A model generated the notes under the pieces. The model saw nothing but the letters and a program-made list of their open reading frames with translations. It did not search any database and was not told where the DNA came from. This document shows positions 13,891 through 25,258 of a DNA stretch of 35,795 bases, in pieces; positions within the stretch are counted from its first letter, which is position 1; each line of letters begins with the position of its first letter. This DNA comes from Planctomycetota bacterium (GTDB lineage: Bacteria > Planctomycetota > UBA1135 > UBA2386), in assembly GCA_016873195.1 (NCBI GenBank), contig VGXW01000011.1:1-35795 (forward strand). Reading direction: 5' to 3'. Position numbers and translations under genes: made by a program.

Positions 13891-15996
13891 TCAGAAGCCG
13901 ACGATCGAGCGGTAGGAGTTGCTCGTGCGGAAGTTCGACGGTCCGAACGTGTAACACTGCGTCAGGTACTCGACGCCGACGAGGCTCGGGTTGCTCGGCA
14001 GCGAGACGGAGAAGTCCGCCTGCCCGGTCGCCCCGGCGACGGTGACTTCGTTGATCACGATGTCGTTCGTCGCGACGCAGCCGGCGGCGCTGCCGTAGGG
14101 CACCAGCGACGCGGGCAGCGGCACGCCCGCCCACGAGGTGCTCGAGAAGCCGATGCCGAGCACCGCGAGCGAGTTCGCGAAGCCCGAGTTGCCGCGGTAG
14201 GTCACGCTCGTGCCGATCCGCGGCAGGCCGGTGACGGTCTGCGCGTAGGGCGTCGGCGTGCCGCAGCCCGCGCCGAACGAGATCACGCCGGCGAGGCTGT
14301 TGGTCCACGACTGCAGGGCCTGGCGGATCGTCGGCCGCAGCATCTCGGGGATCGCGTCGGTGTAGATCGCCGTGCCCGCCTCGGCGTCGTTGTCGGCGTC
14401 GTTGACGAAGGCGCCGAAGCTGTACTCGCGCGGCGTGATCACGTCGTTGGTGATGAACGGCAGCGAGATCCAGCCGTACTCGGCGCGATGGTAGTACAGC
14501 GGCCCGCCGCTGCTGAGGCTGTAGTTGCCGCCCTTGTGCGCCAACTGCGTGAAGTTGCGGAAGCTCGTGACCGCGGTGATGGGCAGATTCAGCGCGGCAG
14601 CCTCGACGGCGATGACGTTGGCGACCGACAGGTCGAACACGCTGTCGAGCATCAGCGTGTAGTAGGTGTCGCGGAAACTGCCGAGGTAGCCGTTGGCGAC
14701 GGCCTCGTGCAAGGTGTGCAGGTCGCGCAGCGTGATGCGGTTGGGATTGGCGATCGCGTCGGCGGCGCAGCCGATCCGGTGGTTGAGGCTCGTGCCCGTC
14801 ATGCCGAGCGCCGCCGCGGTGTTGTTGATGTTGTTGACGCCGAAGTAGGCGGCCACGGCCTGGGTGCGCGCGTTGTCGGAGTCCTCCATCATCATCCGCA
14901 GCACGTTCTGCAGGGACTGATTGACGCCGCCGCTGTCGATCGGGCACGAGGCGTTGGTCGGCGAGTAGTTCGTGTAGACGTTGATCAGCGTGCTCAGCGT
15001 CGTGGCGCCGAGCAGGACGCGCCGCATCGCGTGCGTGTGGTGCAGCGTCTTCATCGTGCTGGCGGGCTCGAACTGCGTCTCGCCGTTCAGCGACACCAGG
15101 TTGCCGCCGTCGATCCGCTCCATGAACGCGCCGACGTTGCCGTTGGTGCGGGCGCGCATGGCCGAGCCGATGTCGGTGGTCAGCGCGTTGCTGTTGTTGA
15201 TGCCGACGATCGCGTAGCGGCGCACGCTGTTCTGGACGTACGACTCGATATCGATCAAGCGCATCCCGTTGCGGCCGACGTGCCAGGTCACGTCGGCGAG
15301 CGAGAGACCGTAGTACCACCAGAACGCCGCGGGGGTGGGGTTCCGCAGCATGATGCAGTTGAAGTTGCCGTTGTCGCGCCGGTCGAGGTGGTAGAGCTGC
15401 GCGTTGTTGGTGGACAGGTTGTTCGAGATCGTCGCCGGGGTGACGTTCAGGTAGTACCACCACGACCGGGCATCGGCGCCCGTGTTGCGGATCATCACGC
15501 AGTCGTAGTAGGTGCTGCCGTTCCACTCGTAGCTGTCGATGTCGACCAGGCGGGCGTTGTTCGTGGTGAGATTGGTGGCGACCTGGGACGAGCTGAGTCC
15601 GTAGTACCACCAGAACGGTTTGTTGTTGGACCCGGTGTTGTCCTCCATGACGCAGGCGAACCGCAGGTTGCCGTTGCCGTCGTCGTAGGCCTCGAGGTCG
15701 ATCAGCCGCGCGCTGTTCGCGGTCAGGTTGCTGGAGACCTGCGCCGCGGTCAGGCCGTAGTACCACCACCAGCCGCTCTGGTAGGAGCCGGTGTTCTGCA
15801 CGAACGTGGCGTCGAAGCTGGTCGGCGTGCGGACCTCGAGGTCGACCAGGCGATAGCCCTGGCCGGCGATCGAGCTCAACGTCGCGGCGCTGACGCCGCC
15901 GTAGTAGTAGTGGCCGGTCGGGGTGGAGAGTTCGCGGACGTCCTGGGCCGGCAGGGCCGCGGCGAGTCCGAGCAGGATGGGGAGGAGGCTGCGCAT
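13891..15996 (-). CDS. Secreted beta-lactamase-fold serine hydrolase with five tandem repeats (polyglycine-hydrolase-like)
   Basis: A 701-aa exported protein: signal peptide (MRSLLPILLGLAAALPAQ), five repeats of about 48 residues (about 34-268) each with a WWYYGL-type turn and a (R)LIDLEAY-type strand, then a class A beta-lactamase-like domain with SxxK (Ser 313, Lys 316 in ASTMK), SDN (373-375) and KGG (488-490). A C-terminal beta-domain (about 585-701, starting GAGCGTPTPYAQTV) is shared with other planctomycete secreted proteins. The repeats resemble the BTRD1 family, and the same repeat + beta-lactamase order is known from fungal polyglycine hydrolases, which cut glycine linkers in plant chitinases. 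Hydrolysis of a peptide or cell-wall substrate is therefore inferred, not antibiotic resistance. The TATCAT hexamer ends 7 nt before the ATG, suggesting a leaderless mRNA. Confidence 0.88.
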   Translation of the reverse strand: MRSLLPILLGLAAALPAQDVRELSTPTGHYYYGGVSAATLSSIAGQGYRLVDLEVRTPTSFDATFVQNTGSYQSGWWWYYGLTAAQVSSNLTANSARLIDLEAYDDGNGNLRFACVMEDNTGSNNKPFWWYYGLSSSQVATNLTTNNARLVDIDSYEWNGSTYYDCVMIRNTGADARSWWYYLNVTPATISNNLSTNNAQLYHLDRRDNGNFNCIMLRNPTPAAFWWYYGLSLADVTWHVGRNGMRLIDIESYVQNSVRRYAIVGINNSNALTTDIGSAMRARTNGNVGAFMERIDGGNLVSLNGETQFEPASTMKTLHHTHAMRRVLLGATTLSTLINVYTNYSPTNASCPIDSGGVNQSLQNVLRMMMEDSDNARTQAVAAYFGVNNINNTAAALGMTGTSLNHRIGCAADAIANPNRITLRDLHTLHEAVANGYLGSFRDTYYTLMLDSVFDLSVANVIAVEAAALNLPITAVTSFRNFTQLAHKGGNYSLSSGGPLYYHRAEYGWISLPFITNDVITPREYSFGAFVNDADNDAEAGTAIYTDAIPEMLRPTIRQALQSWTNSLAGVISFGAGCGTPTPYAQTVTGLPRIGTSVTYRGNSGFANSLAVLGIGFSSTSWAGVPLPASLVPYGSAAGCVATNDIVINEVTVAGATGQADFSVSLPSNPSLVGVEYLTQCYTFGPSNFRTSNSYRSIVGF
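15193..15897 (-). repeat. Five coding repeats (BTRD1-like)
   Basis: About 48 codons per unit. The signature WWYYGL is visible as recurring GTAGTACCACCA on the plus strand at spacings of about 145-155 bp. The copies have diverged at the DNA level, so this is an old protein repeat, not a recent DNA expansion. Confidence 0.8.
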
Positions 15997-16164: not shown

Positions 16165-17379
16165 TCACGTTCGTTCCAGCATCGCCAGCAGCTCCACGTG
16201 CTCGGTGTGCGGGAACAGGTCGCACAGCCGCACGCCCGCGACCCGGTAGCCGTTCGCGCACAACTCCCCGAGGTCGCGCTCGAGCGCGTCGACCGCGCAC
16301 GCGACATACAGCACGCGCGCCGGCCGGGCGGCGAACACGCGCGCGACGCCGGCCGGCTGCAGCCCCGAGCGCGGCGGGTCGACCACCAGCAGGTCGATCG
16401 TCTCGGGCAGCCTGGCCCCGGCGAACGCCTCGCGCCGCACGCGCACGTTCGCGAACCCGTTACGGCTGGCATTGTGCTCCGCGTCGCGGCACGCCGCCTC
16501 ACCGTCCTCGACGATCGTCACGCTCGCGGCGCCCGCCTGCGCGAACCGCAGGCCGAAGCAGCCGACCCCGCCGTAGCCGTCGACGACGTGTGCGCCGCGC
16601 ACGTCGCCGCAGAGCGCCAGTGCTGGCGCGTAGAGCAGTTCGTGCGCGCGCGCGTGCACCTGGTAGAAGCTGCCGGCGCTGATCTTGAACTCGAGCCCGT
16701 CGCGGCGGTCGACCACGTAGTCGCGGCCGCGCAGCGGCAGGTGCCGGTCGCCGAGCAGGAACGGATCGTCGCGGTCGCTGATGGCGTGCACGACGCCGAC
16801 CAGGCGCCGCGCGGGCCGCCCCGGCGGCAGTGCCGCCGCCGCCTGCTGCAGCGCCGCCGCCAGGGCCTGCCCTTCGGCGAACGCGCCGGGCCGCGTGACC
16901 ACGCCCGCGAGCACTTCGCCCGATCCGGCCGCGAGCCGCGCCCAGATCGCCTTCACGTGCCCGTGGTTCCGGCGCGGCTCGAACGGTTGCAGGCGCAGTT
17001 CGCGCAGCACCTGCTCGGCGGCGCGGCCGAAGCCGGTCAGCCAACGGTCCTGCGTGCGGCATTCCTCGATGCGCACGAGCTCGTGGCTGCGGAACGCGTA
17101 GATGCCGACGATCGGCAGGCCGTCGCGGTCCCTGCGCACGGGATAGAGCAGCCGCGTGCGGTAGTGCAGCGGCGGCCGGTCCGGCACGGCGCACTCGATC
17201 GGTCGGCCGCCGAGGAACGGCGCGAGTTGGCGCGTGCACGCCTCGACCTTGTCGTGCAGCTGCCAGGCGATCGGCTGGTCGAGCAGCGAGCACCCGCCGC
17301 ACTGGCCGAAGTGGCGGCACTGCGGCGTTTCGTCGGCGCGGGGGCGGGGTCGGCTCGGTCGGCGGGTCTGGCGCGGCAC
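16165..17379 (-). CDS. TrmA/RlmD-family 23S rRNA (uracil-5-)-methyltransferase
   Basis: Predicted SAM-dependent m5U methyltransferase, 404 aa from GTG 17379. The Fe-S cluster motif C-x5-C-x2-C (Cys 21, 27, 30) plus a distal Cys 107 (EECR) marks the RumA/RlmD/RlmCD group. YRTRLLYPV matches the family's YR…FPV motif. The SAM-binding motif is DGYGGVGCFGL, where the usual second Gly-rich Cys (YCGxG) is replaced. VVDPPRSGL is motif IV; Cys 361 (VACAVDALERDL) and Glu 396 (HTEHVE) are the expected nucleophile and base. GTG 17379 is chosen because TAGGAT ends exactly 7 nt upstream; an in-frame TTG at 17418 is less likely. It has no TRAM domain in front, which fits RlmC/D-like short forms. The exact uridine modified is unknown. 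Confidence 0.88.
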   Translation of the reverse strand: MPRQTRRPSRPRPRADETPQCRHFGQCGGCSLLDQPIAWQLHDKVEACTRQLAPFLGGRPIECAVPDRPPLHYRTRLLYPVRRDRDGLPIVGIYAFRSHELVRIEECRTQDRWLTGFGRAAEQVLRELRLQPFEPRRNHGHVKAIWARLAAGSGEVLAGVVTRPGAFAEGQALAAALQQAAAALPPGRPARRLVGVVHAISDRDDPFLLGDRHLPLRGRDYVVDRRDGLEFKISAGSFYQVHARAHELLYAPALALCGDVRGAHVVDGYGGVGCFGLRFAQAGAASVTIVEDGEAACRDAEHNASRNGFANVRVRREAFAGARLPETIDLLVVDPPRSGLQPAGVARVFAARPARVLYVACAVDALERDLGELCANGYRVAGVRLCDLFPHTEHVELLAMLERT

Positions 17380-17819: not shown

Positions 17820-18006
17820 CCGCGACGGTTCGCGCGCAGTGCAGGCGCCACCCACCCCGCCGGCCGCGCGCACTGCCCATCGCCCGCACGCTTCGCTACC
17901 ATCCTCCGCCCGGCCGCGCGCTCGCGGACACCCGCTCGGCGGCCGGAGCCACCACGTGGCGTTCCGGCGAGGCGCACCTCGCCCCCGCCGCCGCCGGACC
18001 GATCCC

Positions 18007-19305
18007 ATGACCGACTTCCTCGCCGACCTCGAAGGCCGCGGCCTCGTGCACCAGGTCTCGCAGCCGTCCCACGAAGGCTGGCCGACGCTGGCACAGCGCC
18101 TCGCGCAGGGCCCGCTGACCGCCTACATCGGTTTCGACCCGACGGCGGCGAGCCTGCACGTCGGCAGCCTCTTGCCGGTCACCAACCTCGTGCGCCTGCA
18201 GCGCGCCGGCCACCGGCCGATCGCGATCGTCGGCGGCGGCACCGGCCTGATCGGCGACCCGAGCGGCAAGGCGACCGAGCGCGCGATGCTGACGAGGGAC
18301 CAGCTCGAGGCGAACGTCGCCGGCATGCGCGCACAGCTCGAGCGCTTCGTCGACTTCGCGGGGGAACGCGGTGCACTGCTGGTGAACAACGCCGACTGGC
18401 TGTGCGAACTGCGCCTCGTCGACTTCCTGCGCGACATCGGCAAGCTGTTCTCGGTCAACCAGATGGTCGTGCGCGACTCCGTCAAGCAGCGCCTCGAAGG
18501 CCGCGAGCACGGCATCAGCTACACGGAGTTCAGCTACTCGCTGCTGCAGGGTTACGACTTCCTCGTGCTGCACGACCGCTTCGGCTGCGAGCTGCAGATG
18601 GGCGGCAGCGACCAGTGGGGCAACATCACCGACGGCATCGACCTGATCCGGCGGCTGCGCGGCAAACCCGCCTACGGGCTCACGTCGCCGCTGGTGACGA
18701 AGAGCGACGGCAGCAAGTTCGGCAAGTCGGAGCAGGGCAACGTGTGGCTCGACGCGGGCCTCACGCGGCCGTTCTCGTTCCACCAGTTCTGGCTGAACCA
18801 GAGCGACGCCGACGCGGTGCGCTACCTCGGCTACTTCACGTTCCTGCCGGTCGAGGAGCTCGCGGCGATCGCGGCAGAGATGCAGGCGGCACCGCAGCAG
18901 CGCGCGGCGCAGAAGCGGCTCGCCGACGAGGTGACGCGATTCGTGCACGGCGAAGCGGCGCTCGCCTCGGCGCGGCGCGCGGGCGCCGTGTTGTTCGAGG
19001 GCGGCGACCTGCGCGCGCTGTCGGCGGACGAGCTCGCGGACGCGTTCGCCGAGGCGCCGCGCACGAAGCTCGGCGCGGCGACGCTGGGCACGCCCGACGC
19101 GTCGCTCGCGGCGGTGCTGGCGCTGACGAAGCTCGAACCGTCGCGCGGTCGCGCGCGCACGGCGATCGAGAGCGGCGCGGTCAGCGTCAACGGCGTGGTC
19201 GAGAAGGACCCGGCGCGCGTGCTGACGGCGGCGGACCGGCTGACGGGCGGGTTCGTGGTGCTGCGGCGCGGCAAGAAGAGCTACCACGTCGTGGAGACGG
19301 AGTAG
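18007..19305 (+). CDS. tyrS: Tyrosyl-tRNA synthetase
   Basis: Charges tRNA-Tyr with tyrosine. The 432-aa protein starts at ATG 18007 and has the class I signatures HVGS (51-54, HIGH box) and KFGKS (236-240, KMSKS box), the tyrosine-pocket segment GGSDQWGNI (198-206), and a C-terminal S4-like RNA-binding domain (about 365-430, SRGRARTAIESGAVSVNG). Length and order are those of the standard bacterial TyrRS. The 187 bp upstream contain TACCAT at about 17899, too far for a leaderless start, so this mRNA probably has a leader; no T-box was recognised. Confidence 0.97.
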   Translation: MTDFLADLEGRGLVHQVSQPSHEGWPTLAQRLAQGPLTAYIGFDPTAASLHVGSLLPVTNLVRLQRAGHRPIAIVGGGTGLIGDPSGKATERAMLTRDQLEANVAGMRAQLERFVDFAGERGALLVNNADWLCELRLVDFLRDIGKLFSVNQMVVRDSVKQRLEGREHGISYTEFSYSLLQGYDFLVLHDRFGCELQMGGSDQWGNITDGIDLIRRLRGKPAYGLTSPLVTKSDGSKFGKSEQGNVWLDAGLTRPFSFHQFWLNQSDADAVRYLGYFTFLPVEELAAIAAEMQAAPQQRAAQKRLADEVTRFVHGEAALASARRAGAVLFEGGDLRALSADELADAFAEAPRTKLGAATLGTPDASLAAVLALTKLEPSRGRARTAIESGAVSVNGVVEKDPARVLTAADRLTGGFVVLRRGKKSYHVVETE

Positions 19306-19329
19306 CGGCCGGGCGCTGGCGCGCGCTAC
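19302..19329. terminator. Inverted repeat spanning both stop codons of convergent tyrS and pip
   Basis: GTAGCG (19302-19307) pairs with CGCTAC (19324-19329), with a GC-rich interior that can fold further. The tyrS TAG and the pip TAG (minus strand) lie inside the two arms, leaving only 20 bp between genes. It could serve as a bidirectional terminator. Confidence 0.4.
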
Positions 19330-20288
19330 CGCCGCGGATCGCCGGTCTTCGCCACGCGGTCCATCGCGGCCACCAGTTCGCGCGCGAGGCCCGGCTCGTG
19401 CGCACTGTGCCCCGCGTCGTCGACGACCACGTAGTCGGCCTCGGGCCACGCCCGGTGCAGGTCGTCGGCGCCGCGCAGCGGGCTGATCAGGTCGTAGCGG
19501 CCGTGCACGAGCAGCGCGGGCAGATGGCGCACGCGGTGCAGCAGGCGCAGCAGCAGGTCCTCGGGCAGGAAGCGCTCGTTGCGCAGGTAGTGCACCTGCA
19601 GCCGCGCCTGCGCCCAGCTCGCCGCTTCGGCGGTCATCTGCGCCAGCATCTCCGGGTGCGGCAGCAGCGTGCCGGTGCTCGCCGCGTAGGTCGTCCACGC
19701 CACCGCCGCCGCGCGCGCCGCCGCGCCGTCGTCGCCGTGCAGCAGTTCGTGGTAGGCGGACAGCAGATCGCCGCGCCGTGCCTCCGGCACGTGCTCCGCG
19801 AAAGCGCGCCAGACCTCCGGCGCCAGCGCGCGCAGTCCGTAGACGAACCAGTCGATCTCGAAGGCCCGCAACAGCCAGATGCCGCGCAGGCACAGCGACA
19901 GCACGCGCTCGGGATGGCGTTCGGCGTAGTAGAGGCCGAGCGTGCTGCCCCACGAGCCGCCGAACAGGTGCCAGCGCGCGATGCCGAGCCGTTCGCGCAC
20001 GCGCTCGAAGTCCTCGACGAGCAGGTCGATCGTGTTCTCGCGCACCTCGCCGCCCGGCGTGCTGCGGCCCGCACCGCGCTGGTCGACGAACACCACGCGG
20101 AATTCGCGCGGGTCGAAGAACCGCCGGCTCGCCGGCGAACAGCCGGCCCCGGGGCCGCCGTGCACGAACAACACCGGGATGCCGCGCGGATCGCCGCACT
20201 GCGCGACGTGCAGCGTGTGCAGCGGCGAGACCGGCAGGCGCTCCTGGTGGAACGGTTCGCAGGGCGGATAGAGGCCGGGAGGCGGCAT
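19326..20288 (-). CDS. pip: Prolyl aminopeptidase (alpha/beta hydrolase, S33)
   Basis: Cytosolic enzyme releasing N-terminal proline from peptides. The 320-aa protein has the family N-terminus LYPPCEPFHQERLPVSPLHT, oxyanion loop HGGPGAG (43-49), nucleophile elbow GGSWGS (Ser 112), Asp 266 (HGRYDLIS) and His 294 (DAGHSAHEP). Length matches bacterial proline iminopeptidases (about 310-320 aa). Start ATG 20288 is supported by TAGCCT ending 6 nt upstream. It is divergent from the SGNH hydrolase with only 23 bp between starts, and convergent with tyrS. Confidence 0.95.
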   Translation of the reverse strand: MPPPGLYPPCEPFHQERLPVSPLHTLHVAQCGDPRGIPVLFVHGGPGAGCSPASRRFFDPREFRVVFVDQRGAGRSTPGGEVRENTIDLLVEDFERVRERLGIARWHLFGGSWGSTLGLYYAERHPERVLSLCLRGIWLLRAFEIDWFVYGLRALAPEVWRAFAEHVPEARRGDLLSAYHELLHGDDGAAARAAAVAWTTYAASTGTLLPHPEMLAQMTAEAASWAQARLQVHYLRNERFLPEDLLLRLLHRVRHLPALLVHGRYDLISPLRGADDLHRAWPEADYVVVDDAGHSAHEPGLARELVAAMDRVAKTGDPRR

Positions 20289-20294
20289 GCCGAG

Positions 20295-20300
20295 AGGCTA
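20295..20300 (-). promoter_or_regulatory. -10 element (TAGCCT) of pip, leaderless
   Basis: TAGCCT on the minus strand, 6 nt from the ATG at 20288. It shares two bases (TA) with the opposite -10 element of the SGNH hydrolase. Confidence 0.55.
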
Positions 20301-20304
20301 CCAT
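20299..20304 (+). promoter_or_regulatory. -10 element (TACCAT) of the SGNH hydrolase, leaderless
   Basis: TACCAT on the plus strand, 7 nt from ATG 20312, overlapping the pip -10 element head to head. Confidence 0.6.
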
Positions 20305-20311
20305 CGCCGGC

Positions 20312-21421
20312 ATGGTGTCCCTCTCGCGCCGTTCGTTCCTCGCCGCTGGCGCCGCCGCCGTCGCCGCGCCCGCCGTTCTCGCCGCCGCCCCGCGGCCGCG
20401 CGCCGACCTCGCCTGGACCGACGTGGTCGATTGGCCGATCGAGGGCCGCGCCTTCGCCGACCGCAAGGCGCCCTACGACCGCCTGCCCGCGCGCGCCGAG
20501 GCCACCGTGCGCAAGGAGGTCTGGGACCTGTCGCGCGACAGCGCGGGCATGGTCGTGCGCCTGTCGACGGCGAGCCCCGAACTGCACGTGCGCTACCGGC
20601 TCACGCGGTCGCGCCTCGCGATGGCGCACATGCCCGCGACCGGCGTCAGCGGCGTCGACCTCTACGGCCACGGTGGCGGGCGCTGGCGCTGGATCGAGGT
20701 GACGCGGCCCGCCGCGCAGGACGTGACGGCGAAGCTGTTCGGCCCGCGGCCGGCCGGCGAAGCGCGCCCGTTCCTGCTCTACCTGCCGCTCCACAACGGC
20801 GTCGAGAAGCTCGAACTCGGCGTGCCCGCGGGCGAGACCGTGGCCCCGGCACCGCCGCGCGCGGCCGGCCGCAAGCCCCTGGTCTGCTACGGCACGTCGA
20901 TCCTGCACGGCGCGTGCGCGTCGCGGCCGGGCATGGCGTGGGCCGCGATCCTGGGCCGCGCGCTCGACCGCGAGATCGTGAACCTCGGCTTCTCGGGCAA
21001 CGGCCGCATGGAACTGGAGGTCGGCCAGTTCCTCGTCGAACTCGACCCGGCCGCATTCGTGATCGACTGCCTGCCGAACATGACGCCCGAACAGGTCGCC
21101 GAACGCACCGCACCGCTCGTGAACCTGCTGCGCGGCAAGCGGCCGGCGACGCCGATCCTGCTCGTCGAGGACCGCACGTTCGGCAACGCGTGGTTCGACG
21201 AGAAGCGGCTGGCGGAGCACGAGCGGCGCCGGCAGGCGCTGCGCGATGCGTTCGCGGGCCTGCAGCGCGACGGCGTCGCGGGCCTGCATCTGCTCGGCGG
21301 GGCGCCGCTGCTCGGCGACGACGACGAAGGCACGACCGACGGCTCGCACCCGAACGACCTCGGCATGATGCGCCAGGCGCAGTGCGTGGCCGCGGCGTTG
21401 CGGCCGATCCTCGGCGGGTGA
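20312..21421 (+). CDS. Secreted SGNH/GDSL-type esterase with GxDLY N-terminal domain
   Basis: Predicted exported esterase or carbohydrate deacetylase, 369 aa. A Tat-type signal is present (SRRSFLAAGAAAVAAPAVLA). The N-terminal beta-domain ends in GVSGVDLYG (GxDLY motif, about 112-119). The SGNH domain follows with nucleophile Ser 196 (YGTSIL), Gly in NLGFSGNG (224-231), Asn 256 (CLPNM) and the D343-x-x-H346 pair (DGSHPN). The two-domain order is that of the GxDLY/Lipase_GDSL_3 pairing. Start ATG 20312 is supported by TACCAT 7 nt upstream. It leads a likely operon with two DinB genes (17 bp to the next start). Confidence 0.9.
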   Translation: MVSLSRRSFLAAGAAAVAAPAVLAAAPRPRADLAWTDVVDWPIEGRAFADRKAPYDRLPARAEATVRKEVWDLSRDSAGMVVRLSTASPELHVRYRLTRSRLAMAHMPATGVSGVDLYGHGGGRWRWIEVTRPAAQDVTAKLFGPRPAGEARPFLLYLPLHNGVEKLELGVPAGETVAPAPPRAAGRKPLVCYGTSILHGACASRPGMAWAAILGRALDREIVNLGFSGNGRMELEVGQFLVELDPAAFVIDCLPNMTPEQVAERTAPLVNLLRGKRPATPILLVEDRTFGNAWFDEKRLAEHERRRQALRDAFAGLQRDGVAGLHLLGGAPLLGDDDEGTTDGSHPNDLGMMRQAQCVAAALRPILGG

Positions 21422-21428
21422 ACGGCAC

Positions 21429-21433
21429 GGAGG
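21429..21433 (+). promoter_or_regulatory. Ribosome binding site of the first DinB gene
   Basis: GGAGG with 5 nt to ATG 21439, in the 17-bp gap after the SGNH gene; expected for an internal operon gene. Confidence 0.6.
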
Positions 21434-21438
21434 CGCCC

Positions 21439-21969
21439 ATGCACTACGATTCCACCGAGGCGACGGCGCTGCTGCAGCGCACGCCGGCCCAGCTCGACGC
21501 CTGGCTGCGCGGCCTGCCCGACGCCTGGCTGCGCTGCGACGAGGGGCCCGGCACCTGGAGCCCCTATGTGGTCGTCGGGCACCTGGTCGCCGGCGAACGG
21601 ACCGACTGGCTGCCGCGCGTGCGCCACCTGCTGCAGCACGGCGAGTCGGTGCCGTTCCCGCCGTTCGACCGCGAGGCGCAGTTCGCGCGGCCCGCGGTGC
21701 CGATCGGCACCCTGCTCGACGAGTTCACGGCACTGCGCGGACAGAGCCTCGCGGGGCTCGCCGCGCTGCAGCTGTCGCCGGCCGACCTCGCTCGCCGCGG
21801 CCGGCATCCTGCGCTCGGCCCCGTGACGCTCGGCCAGCACCTCGCGACGTGGGTCGCGCACGACCTCACGCACACGGCGCAGATCGCGCGGGCGATGGCG
21901 CGCCGCTACCGCGACGACGTCGGCCCGTGGTCCGCCTACCTGCGCATCGTGCGCGAAGGTCCGGCCTGA
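21439..21969 (+). CDS. DinB-family protein (first copy)
   Basis: A 176-aa DinB/YfiT-like four-helix bundle protein. The family's metal-binding His triad fits His 48 (VVGHLV), His 141 and His 145 (WVAHDLTHTAQIA). Members are thiol-dependent metalloenzymes (for example bacillithiol or mycothiol S-transferase-like); the reaction here is unknown. GGAGG precedes the ATG. It sits between the SGNH hydrolase and a second, divergent DinB gene. Confidence 0.85.
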   Translation: MHYDSTEATALLQRTPAQLDAWLRGLPDAWLRCDEGPGTWSPYVVVGHLVAGERTDWLPRVRHLLQHGESVPFPPFDREAQFARPAVPIGTLLDEFTALRGQSLAGLAALQLSPADLARRGRHPALGPVTLGQHLATWVAHDLTHTAQIARAMARRYRDDVGPWSAYLRIVREGPA

Positions 21970-22016
21970 CGCGCTGGCCCCTTGCAGCACGGGCCGCGGC
22001 GCCGTTCGCTTTCCTC

Positions 22017-22535
22017 ATGCCGCTGCGCCCTTCCGCGGACGAGTTCTCCCCGCACCACCAGGCCTACATCGACCGCGTGCCGCTCGGCGACGTGCTCGTG
22101 CACCTGCACACGCAGGGCCGCAGCACCTTGCGGCTGCTGCACGCGCTGTCCGAATCGCGGGCCGGTTACCGCTACGCCGAGGGCAAGTGGACCGTGAAGC
22201 AGGTCGTGCAGCACGTGATCGACGGCGAACGGCTGTTCGGCTACCGCGCGCTGTGCTTCGCGCGCGGCGAAGCGGGCGCGCTGCCGGGTTTCGACGAGAA
22301 CCTCTACGCGGCGAACGACGGCTCCGCCGGGCGCACGGTCGCGAGCCTCGGCGCCGAGTATGCCGCGGTGCGCGCGGCCACCTGCGCGCTCTACGAGGGC
22401 TTCGACGGCCCGGCCTGGGGGCGGCGCGGCATCGCCAACGGCAAGCCGATCACCGTGCGCGCGCTGCCGTGGGTCACCGCCGGCCACGAACTGCACCACC
22501 TCGCGGTGCTGCACGAACGCTACGGGATCGGCTGA
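22017..22535 (+). CDS. DinB-family protein (second copy)
   Basis: A 172-aa DinB-superfamily protein, clearly different in sequence from the gene before it. His 66 (VVQHVIDGERLFGYR), His 157 and His 161 (AGHELHHLAVL) form the expected metal-binding set; the EGKWTVKQV segment and the AGHELHH end are typical of the damage-inducible DinB_2 type. It starts 47 bp after the first DinB gene and ends 2 bp before the GTG of the cation exporter, so all are likely cotranscribed. Confidence 0.88.
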   Translation: MPLRPSADEFSPHHQAYIDRVPLGDVLVHLHTQGRSTLRLLHALSESRAGYRYAEGKWTVKQVVQHVIDGERLFGYRALCFARGEAGALPGFDENLYAANDGSAGRTVASLGAEYAAVRAATCALYEGFDGPAWGRRGIANGKPITVRALPWVTAGHELHHLAVLHERYGIG

Positions 22536-22537
22536 CG

Positions 22538-23470
22538 GTGGTGCACGAGCACTGTTTCCTCGGCGCGCGGCACGGGGAGAACCAGCGCCGCACCTGGACC
22601 GTCATCGCCGTGACCGCGGCGATGATGGTCGCGGAGATCGTCTGCGGCACGCTGTTCGGCTCGATGGCGCTGCTCGCCGACGGCTGGCACATGGCGACGC
22701 ACGCCGGCGCGCTGTCGATCTCGGCGCTCGCCTACGCCTTCGCCCTGCGGCGCACGCGCGACCGGCGGTTCTCGTTCGGCACCGGCAAGGTCGGGGATCT
22801 CGCGGGGTTCGCGAGCGCGGTGGTGCTCGCGGTCGTCGCCTTGTGGATCGGCGTCGAGTCGGGGCTGCGGTTGCTGAGCCCGGTGGCGATCTCGTTCGAC
22901 GAGGCGATCTGGGTCGCGGGGCTCGGGCTGTGCGTCAACGTCGTGTGCGCGCTGGTGCTGGGCGGCGGGCACGGGCACGAGCACGCCGATGGGTACGGCG
23001 AAGGCGAGGTGGCGGGGGAGGAATGCGGCGAGTCCGGCCACACGCACCTGCACCGCGACCACAACCTGCGCTCGGCGTATCTGCACGTGCTCGCCGACGC
23101 GGTCACCTCGGTCGCGGCGATCCTGGGCCTGCTGGCGGGCAAGTTCCTGGGTTGGGCCTGGTTCGACCCGGTCGTCGGAGTGCTGGGCGCGGTGATGATC
23201 GCGCTGTGGTCGATCGGGCTCCTGCGCGACACCGCGGCGGTGTTGCTCGACATGGTGCCCGGCGGCGAGGTCGAGGCGGCGGTGCGCGAACGGCTCGAGC
23301 GCGACGGCGATCGGGTCGGCGACCTGCACGTCTGGCGCGTGGGGCCGGGGCATCTCGCGGTGGTGGTGGAGGTCGTGACGGCGTCGGCGCGGCCGGCGGC
23401 GGAGTATCGGCAGCGGCTCGCTGGCATCCGGCACCTGTCGCACGTGACGGTCGAGGTCACGCGGCGGTAG
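22538..23470 (+). CDS. dmeF: Cation diffusion facilitator, DmeF-type (Co/Ni/Zn export)
   Basis: Inner-membrane divalent-cation/proton antiporter, 310 aa. GTG 22538 or 22541 are equivalent starts; both give VHEHCFLGARHG, the His-rich N-terminus of DmeF proteins. The motifs are ALLADGWHMATHA (about 45-56) in TM2 and HVLADAVTSV (His 183, Asp 187) in TM5, with a long His/Glu-rich metal-sensing loop (GGGHGHEHA…HTHLHRDHN, about 142-176) between TM4 and TM5. About six TM segments precede a cytosolic CDF C-terminal domain (DLHVWRVGPGHLAVVVEV). The symbol is by family resemblance; metal specificity is inferred. It is convergent with the DUF4276 gene 13 bp away. Confidence 0.87.
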   Translation: MVHEHCFLGARHGENQRRTWTVIAVTAAMMVAEIVCGTLFGSMALLADGWHMATHAGALSISALAYAFALRRTRDRRFSFGTGKVGDLAGFASAVVLAVVALWIGVESGLRLLSPVAISFDEAIWVAGLGLCVNVVCALVLGGGHGHEHADGYGEGEVAGEECGESGHTHLHRDHNLRSAYLHVLADAVTSVAAILGLLAGKFLGWAWFDPVVGVLGAVMIALWSIGLLRDTAAVLLDMVPGGEVEAAVRERLERDGDRVGDLHVWRVGPGHLAVVVEVVTASARPAAEYRQRLAGIRHLSHVTVEVTRR

Positions 23471-23483
23471 GGGGGCGCTGCGA

Positions 23484-24071
23484 TCAGGGGGCAGGGCCTG
23501 GAGCACCGCGCAAGAGACGCCCGACTTCGCGCAGGAGCTTGTCGAAGGACGGACACCCGCGAGCTGCGTCGAGGTCGAAGAGAGCCGCGAACGACGGTTG
23601 GTCCAGCGTCTCGCTGTAGCGGCGCGCCATGCGGGCAGCGAGCCAGCCCTTGGCGCCCCGCACTGCTTCCGGGTCGGCCGGGGCGATGGTACTGTCGTCG
23701 AGCTTGCCGGCAGCGGCCAGCGAGGCGGCAGCAGCGAGGTACCACGACTCGAACTCCGTTCGCGCCACGACGACGGCAACGGGCCGGTCCGCCCTGGCTG
23801 CGATGGCACAGGCGAGCAGACGCGGTCCGAGGATCGCAGGACAGTCTGCATCGGCATCGAGCACGACCAGGATCGGATCGCCGGGTGCCGACGATCGCGC
23901 CGCCAGTTCGACGGCTCGCCGCAGGCCATCCTCCCGCACGAGTTGGCTGCGCGGCACACGGATGGGGAGCCTTACGGCGGCCGTCACGCCCGCGAGAGCA
24001 GCGATGCGCCGCAACAGCACAGGGACGGCTTCCACTTCGCCGTGACCCTCGACGATCGGGACGATCCTCAT
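23484..24071 (-). CDS. DUF4276 (TOPRIM-like) protein of the second ATPase module
   Basis: A 195-aa DUF4276 protein of the classic VEGHGE type: MRIVPIVEGHGEVEAVPVLL at the start, DADADC (72-77) as the acidic second motif and ARTEFESWYLA further on. The E…DxDxD arrangement resembles a TOPRIM nuclease core, an inference. Its ATG (24071-24069) overlaps the ATPase stop (TGA 24070-24068), giving ATGA coupling. It is only distantly similar to the first DUF4276 in the window; shared features are the N-terminal acid, the D-rich motif and the E-x-E-x-W motif. Confidence 0.87.
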   Translation of the reverse strand: MRIVPIVEGHGEVEAVPVLLRRIAALAGVTAAVRLPIRVPRSQLVREDGLRRAVELAARSSAPGDPILVVLDADADCPAILGPRLLACAIAARADRPVAVVVARTEFESWYLAAAASLAAAGKLDDSTIAPADPEAVRGAKGWLAARMARRYSETLDQPSFAALFDLDAARGCPSFDKLLREVGRLLRGAPGPAP

Positions 24072-25258
24072 GTCTCCTGCCGCCCGAACAGCAGCAGTTG
24101 CCGCGGGCAAGCTGCCTCGGCGTCCGGCTCGAGACGGTTCATGCGCAGCAGTTCGCCGGCGGTGTAGAGGCGGTCGCGCAGGACCTCGCGCCCCGCCTGG
24201 TTCAGCCGCCCCAGGTGCGTCTCGTTCCCGTCGGCGACGACGGCGAGGATCGCTTCGTCGGGCACGTCCTTGTCGTCGAGCAGATCCGCGCTGTGGCTGG
24301 TCGTCACGACCTGCATGCGCGTGGCGGCATCGCGAAGCGCGTCGAGCAACACGCCAGCCGCCGCCGGATGCAGCGCGGTCTCCGGTTCCTCGATGCCGAC
24401 CAGCGGGATCGGTGCGCCGTTGCCCGTCTGGTGCAGCGCGAGCAGGATGCCGAGCGCGCGGACCGTGCCATCCGACATGTTCTGGGCGAGGAATCGCCAG
24501 GCGTCCCTGGCGCCGTGCACCTGCTGGCGGAACCCCACGGTTTCCCGTGGCCCGAGCGCCACGTGTTCGACGCCGACCACGCCCGGAGCCACCTTGGCGA
24601 GGTAGTCGACGAGCCGCTGCTTCTGGGCCGGCACCCCCTCCAGCCGCGCGACCACGCTCGCCACGTTGCTGCCGTCGCGCTTCAGCAGATGACCCGCGTC
24701 GGGCGGCTGCAGCTCGCGCATCGCGTTGGGGTTCAGGTTGTAGAAGCCCATACGCGAGAGTGCCTCGTAGACCGGCCGGAGCGGCGCATGGCCCGAGGCA
24801 ATGCTCAGGAAGAGACGATCGGAACTGGCCGCCGGAGCCGGCCCCAGCCGCGGCGAGAACGTGGTGACGACGCCATCCTCGACGACGAACTCGACACCTG
24901 CCTGTGCGGCGAAACACTCTTCGCGCTTCACCGTCCAGGTGCCGTTGGCCCCGGCGCCGATCTCGAACGCGTAGTGCCCGGCGAGCCTTGCCGCGCCGAA
25001 GTCCAACCGGATGCCGAAGTGGGTGGGGTGGCCGCTGGAGCGGCGGCGGACCTCGCCGATGCCGCCGCGGTCGCGGCTGGCATGGTGGAGCGACTGGTTC
25101 AGGGCGTCCGCGACGAAGCGCAGCGCGTCGAGGAAGTTGCTCTTGCCCGAGCCGTTCGGTCCGACGAGGAACGTCAGCGGCCCGAGCACCACGTCGCAGC
25201 CGCCGATGCTGCGGTAGTTCTTCAGCCGGACCCGCTGCAGGAACGCCGTCGAGGCCAT
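24068..25258 (-). CDS. AAA-family (RecF/AAA_21-like) ATPase of the second DUF4276 module
   Basis: A 396-aa ABC/SMC-type ATPase: LKNYRSIGGCDVVLGPLTFL leads into Walker A GPNGSGKS (33-40), an SDGTVRAL signature segment (about 264), VGIEEPETALHP (Glu 290-291) and TTSHS (His 322). No TOPRIM domain is fused; the DUF4276 gene downstream supplies it. The architecture resembles split OLD-like and PARIS-like systems, in which an ATPase senses invasion and restrains or presents a nuclease; function is not established here. ATG 25258 is supported by TAACCT ending 8 nt upstream, a leaderless signature. The gene follows the export operon by 80 bp on the same strand. Confidence 0.88.
   Translation of the reverse strand: MASTAFLQRVRLKNYRSIGGCDVVLGPLTFLVGPNGSGKSNFLDALRFVADALNQSLHHASRDRGGIGEVRRRSSGHPTHFGIRLDFGAARLAGHYAFEIGAGANGTWTVKREECFAAQAGVEFVVEDGVVTTFSPRLGPAPAASSDRLFLSIASGHAPLRPVYEALSRMGFYNLNPNAMRELQPPDAGHLLKRDGSNVASVVARLEGVPAQKQRLVDYLAKVAPGVVGVEHVALGPRETVGFRQQVHGARDAWRFLAQNMSDGTVRALGILLALHQTGNGAPIPLVGIEEPETALHPAAAGVLLDALRDAATRMQVVTTSHSADLLDDKDVPDEAILAVVADGNETHLGRLNQAGREVLRDRLYTAGELLRMNRLEPDAEAACPRQLLLFGRQET

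Follow-up and report, generated by a model that had tools for sequence, protein, structure and literature searches.

How two genes that start back to back on opposite strands can both be transcribed and translated from a spacer of 23 bp, and whether their expression excludes one another, is the question raised by pip and an SGNH/GDSL hydrolase gene in the window (the whole 35,795-nt stretch of planctomycete DNA that was analysed). The spacer is bounded by two start codons: the ATG of pip, on the minus strand (20288-20286), and that of SGNH, on the plus strand (20312-20314). In window coordinates the features are as follows.

19326-20288, minus strand: pip, prolyl aminopeptidase (S33 alpha/beta hydrolase), 320 aa; TIGR01249 with 331 bits (cut-off 259.75), PF00561
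20312-21421, plus strand: SGNH/GDSL hydrolase with GxDLY N-terminal domain, 369 aa; PF14606 with 211 bits, PF14607 with 137 bits
20289-20311, no strand: intergenic spacer, putative bidirectional promoter, 23 bp, GCCGAGAGGCTACCATCGCCGGC, read directly from the sequence
20299-20304, plus strand: TACCAT, putative SGNH -10 element, which begins at -13 relative to the SGNH start codon
20300-20295, minus strand: TAGCCT, putative pip -10 element, which begins at -12 relative to the pip start codon
20295-20304, no strand: symmetric core ANNNTANNNT (AGGCTACCAT), with the TA common to both hexamers at T20299-A20300
20311-20312, plus strand: predicted SGNH mRNA start, at the A of ATG or one base earlier, 6-7 nt past the hexamer
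20288, minus strand: predicted pip mRNA start, at the A of ATG, 6 nt past the hexamer

The SGNH protein carries a Tat-like signal, SRRSFLAAG (motif read by eye), and its nearest named relatives are mostly from Planctomycetota MAGs. Two DinB_2 genes followed by a Cation_efflux gene lie 3' of the SGNH gene on the same strand (window 21418-23470). The first DinB_2 gene probably starts at the ATG at 21439, with GGAGG just 5' of it; this likely operon-internal gene uses a Shine-Dalgarno sequence, whereas the leading SGNH gene has none. A regulator gene was sought among pip, SGNH and the genes downstream of SGNH, and none was found.

The initial annotation had read the spacer as a 23-bp divergent promoter with overlapping -10 elements, TAGCCT and TACCAT, sharing a TA, and this putative assignment finds good support in the positions, the genome-wide statistics and the conservation described below. 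Both hexamers have the form TANNNT; its occurrence at -12/-13 on both strands of a random 23-mer of the same composition has a probability of ~5.5e-4, and the pattern was counted once in the 5.5 Mb of this genome. In a 1.21-Mb sample of the genome 137 divergent pairs were called; the shortest spacing above 23 bp was 56 bp, far beyond it, and two pairs called at 11 and 19 bp seem to be miscalls. The predicted divergent start sites lie 23-24 bp apart on opposed -10 elements with common bases, which is the geometry of the 23-bp class of bidirectional promoters: a shared TA gives 23 bp if both starts fall 7 bases past the -10 element. No -35 element was recognisable on either side, where CGGGAG and GAGGGA occupy the expected places, and a generic sigma-70 scan of 18000-22500 returned 0 promoters. 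The scan requires a -35 element, and its blank result was for this reason not counted as absence; since it gave no promoter, the hexamers alone would be weak evidence.

The initial annotation missed the leaderless geometry of the locus, the strongest argument that the hexamers are genuine. TANNNT about 12 bp 5' of the start codon is a mark of leaderless genes (Zheng et al., 2011, PMC3160421; for Deinococcus-Thermus, PMC12340547); one planctomycete genome was earlier classed as possibly leaderless and/or S1-dependent (PMC5397173). We sampled 1.21 Mb of the genome in stretches (960 called genes, 73% GC), using a simple in-house codon-score caller in which the upstream motif plays no part in the choice of start. 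A TANNNT beginning at -12/-13 was present in 38 of the 524 genes leading a transcription unit, compared with 2-7 of the same genes in equal control windows between -18 and -29 and a single one at -10/-11. Operon-internal genes carried it in 3 of 221 cases (Fisher p 6e-4 vs leading genes), and Shine-Dalgarno-like 4-mers showed the opposite trend (123/524 leading genes, 23%, vs 126/221 operon-internal genes, 57%); the leaderless-type motif is thus strongest in genes that open transcription units. As ~7% of leading genes have TANNNT at exactly -12/-13, leaderless initiation, judged by this motif, is common in the genome and not universal. When the genes were aligned on the -10 element, the middle bases tended to C/G, C and A, with which TACCAT and TAGCCT are both consistent, and a weak TTG tendency appeared at -35.

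The offsets of pip (-12) and SGNH (-13) are those of the genome-wide peak. No Shine-Dalgarno sequence was found at working distance for pip, and for SGNH the only candidate is the GAGG of a GAGAGG whose end lies 13 bp from the ATG. Elsewhere in the window, leaderless-type TANNNT motifs precede three minus-strand genes, at -13 (13891-15996), -13 (16165-17379) and -14 (24068-25258). The same genome also holds a 64-bp divergent spacer (G000:C45:10603-10666) with TANNNT at -12 on both sides and separate, non-overlapping -10 elements. In a 400-kb stretch of another genome, G081, the peak at -12 was weaker and 23-bp pairs were absent; this stretch does not strengthen the case.

Conservation of the pair was followed in 34 genomes of the family. 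In one of another genus (G010, contig C455) pip and SGNH are again divergent with 23 bp between them (spacer in SGNH orientation CGCGAGAGAGTATCATCCTGACC), and the hexamers are TATCAT at -13 for SGNH and TACTCT at -12 for pip. Protein identity to the G010 counterparts is 77% for SGNH and 69% for pip; the spacer is identical at 13 of 23 positions, which is near the identity at four-fold sites (59-64%), with all four defining bases and both offsets kept. The pairing occurs in only 2 of the 34 family genomes, and when we looked for conservation of a functional link joining the two genes, the pair at 23 bp was found, besides this genome, in G010 alone; in a further genome (G026) SGNH is followed by a pip relative on the opposite strand. 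Orthologues of each gene were compared separately. TANNNT at -12 to -15 was found before the SGNH orthologues L010-L015, L017 and L210 of the family, plus L043, and at -12 before the pip orthologues L183, L190-L193 and L195; the pip orthologues L181, L182, L184, L186 and L187 lack it at -12/-13. Since unpaired orthologues of both genes keep the motif, each gene seems to have been leaderless before or without pairing.

The pattern CAT-N6-ANNNTANNNT-N7-ATG was then searched in 154 genomes of the order. It gave 135 sites vs 33 for the reversed control (manual tally), but T..TA..A, a further control that keeps the same starts, had >100 raw hits, and raw counts were consequently set aside for a test of ORF context; many of the order-wide matches lie inside genes and are chance matches, and the difference lies in the context. 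In the first 30 loci listed per search, which are not a random sample, coding-like ORFs of at least 80 aa flanked the site on both sides in 15/30 cases at the 6/7 spacing and 10/30 at the 6/6 spacing, vs 0/30 for T..TA..A and 5/30 for a core shifted to 4/9, a control that retained some real-looking pairs. The 6/7 spacing was separated from the shifted core (p 0.013), whereas the 6/6 spacing alone was not (p 0.23). These p-values are somewhat too small because the loci are neither random nor all independent: a single pair accounts for L221-L223 (three genomes), another for L217/L218 and a third for L225/L226 (two genomes each), so that the 15 hits at 6/7 correspond to ~11 distinct gene pairs. 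Pfam domains were recognised on both sides at L221 (two GFO/IDH/MocA oxidoreductases), L226 (CutA1 and proline dehydrogenase), L308 (EVE and tryptophan dioxygenase) and L293 (short-chain dehydrogenase and MOSC). A second batch of 40 hand-picked loci served for examples only and was excluded from the rates.

Five orthologous pairs, of which L292/L294 and L293/L300 come from the hand-picked batch, were used for a footprint comparison. The six free core positions were identical in 26/30 cases (87%) vs 32/65 (49%) for the 13 positions outside the core (p 6e-4); without the pip/SGNH pair of the window the figures were 23/24 and 26/52. For the window pair itself the core excess is absent (3/6 core vs 6/13 outside), and its evidence consists of the retained length and the defining bases. 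Two observations concern other loci. Two gene pairs, unrelated and in different families (L217, L218, L292, L294), have AGGGTATCCT as the core of their shared-TA spacers, perhaps because it is a strong core that is favoured or because a regulator binds there. At L290 and L306 a glycosyltransferase-9-like gene is divergent from a similar partner, and the 23-bp shared-TA spacer is kept with the 6- and 7-base arms exchanged between the two genes. Taken together, the spacer statistics, the genome-wide peak offsets, the retention in G010 and the recurrence in the order indicate that the hexamers are probably beyond chance.

A start-site distance of 23 bp at bidirectional promoters was reportedly described in 2021 by Warman and colleagues in Nature Microbiology. 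Common start-site distances at such promoters in E. coli are 10, 18 and 23 bp (Warman et al., 2026, PMC12825309), and the spacer resembles the 23-bp class in its opposed -10 elements sharing bases and its predicted starts 23-24 bp apart. It differs from the five E. coli pairs of that study, for which -35 hexamers were scored on both sides, in having no visible -35 element, and in that the predicted starts coincide with both start codons, so that the entire intergenic region would be promoter. The locus shares motif, offset and lack of a usable Shine-Dalgarno sequence with the leaderless genes of PMC3160421 and PMC12340547, and the searched parts of these two papers make no mention of divergent promoters. 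With the EcoRV restriction-modification promoters (PMC5333194) it has in common two divergent genes with overlapping polymerase sites; EcoRV is under the control of its C protein, whereas at pip/SGNH neither a regulator gene nor a regulator site was found. Among the titles, abstracts and term counts covered, which span part of the literature, no publication joined leaderless genes and bidirectional promoters.

These comparisons bear on the further claims of the initial annotation. Simultaneous binding of two polymerases is precluded by the overlap of the -10 elements. The further claim of mutually exclusive expression, with pip and SGNH expression as alternative states of a simple switch, is not supported, and we consider it very unlikely, the least probable of the alternatives. 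The two-base overlap does exclude simultaneous polymerases, and at E. coli bidirectional promoters transcription one way interfered with the other, though only under strong activation; basal transcription of all five was nevertheless too low for polymerase competition (PMC12825309). Against a switch there are also the spacer itself, with no -35, activator or repressor site visible, the lack of evident antagonism between the pip and SGNH products, and a pairing confined to two family genomes. Occlusion alone, moreover, provides no memory of state and nothing to hold either one.

Two other explanations question the hexamers themselves. That both are chance matches, with transcription coming from upstream and conventional leaders, is very unlikely: the missing -35 on either strand, the blank sigma-70 scan and the degenerate promoter consensus of high-GC DNA speak for it, but both hexamers at -12/-13 have a probability of ~5.5e-4, fall exactly on the genome-wide peak and are retained in a second genus, and a conventional leader would overlap the coding region of the opposite gene and has no well-placed Shine-Dalgarno sequence. 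Unlikely, too, is that a single hexamer works, more probably that of SGNH, the other being chance or weak and pip being driven from within the SGNH gene. Most family SGNH orthologues, including those without an adjacent pip, keep TANNNT at -12 to -15, and five pip orthologues lack it at -12/-13. The pip motif at -12 is however retained in G010 and present in several other pip orthologues, and symmetric double hexamers are flanked by coding-like genes far above the controls.

Given the geometry, the genome-wide positional enrichment, the conservation in a second genus and the recurrence in the order, all read from the DNA sequence, we favour with good confidence the reading of the spacer as a bidirectional promoter of minimal size in the 23-bp class, predicted to give two leaderless (or 1-nt-leader) mRNAs and low-level expression of both genes side by side. 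The symmetric core would provide one TANNNT -10 element per strand with the TA step in common, each 12-13 bp from a start codon, so that both mRNAs would be leaderless or carry a 1-nt leader and would be translated without a Shine-Dalgarno sequence. RNA polymerase would melt the common TA facing one gene or the other, never both at the same moment. Because there is no -35 element, low occupancy is expected, which makes side-by-side expression likelier than a switch; interference between the directions would arise only under strong activation of one. Promoter activity and strength, start sites, leaderless translation and the weakness of interference are predictions of this model. Some points weigh against it: -35 elements are absent on both sides although genes with such a -10 element show a weak TTG tendency genome-wide, the GAGAGG before SGNH could be argued to be a distant Shine-Dalgarno sequence, and the bases conserved in G010 partly reflect shared descent.

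The spacer would bring bidirectional promoters and leaderless mRNAs, each known already, together in a single minimal element, which is found again between unrelated genes elsewhere in this order, itself little studied. With no leader, long spacer or visible -35 element, it would offer a compact natural system for tests of polymerase competition, and the sequence-only rule may aid in finding leaderless genes and correcting start codons in planctomycete genomes. We give about even chances to the broader proposal that doubly leaderless bidirectional promoters are a standing device of genome compaction in this order of Planctomycetota, in which a 10-bp symmetric core sets both transcription and translation starts and the spacing is selected as one unit. 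If true, two unrelated genes would be held in divergent arrangement 22-23 bp apart, which is close to the minimum that leaderless initiation permits.
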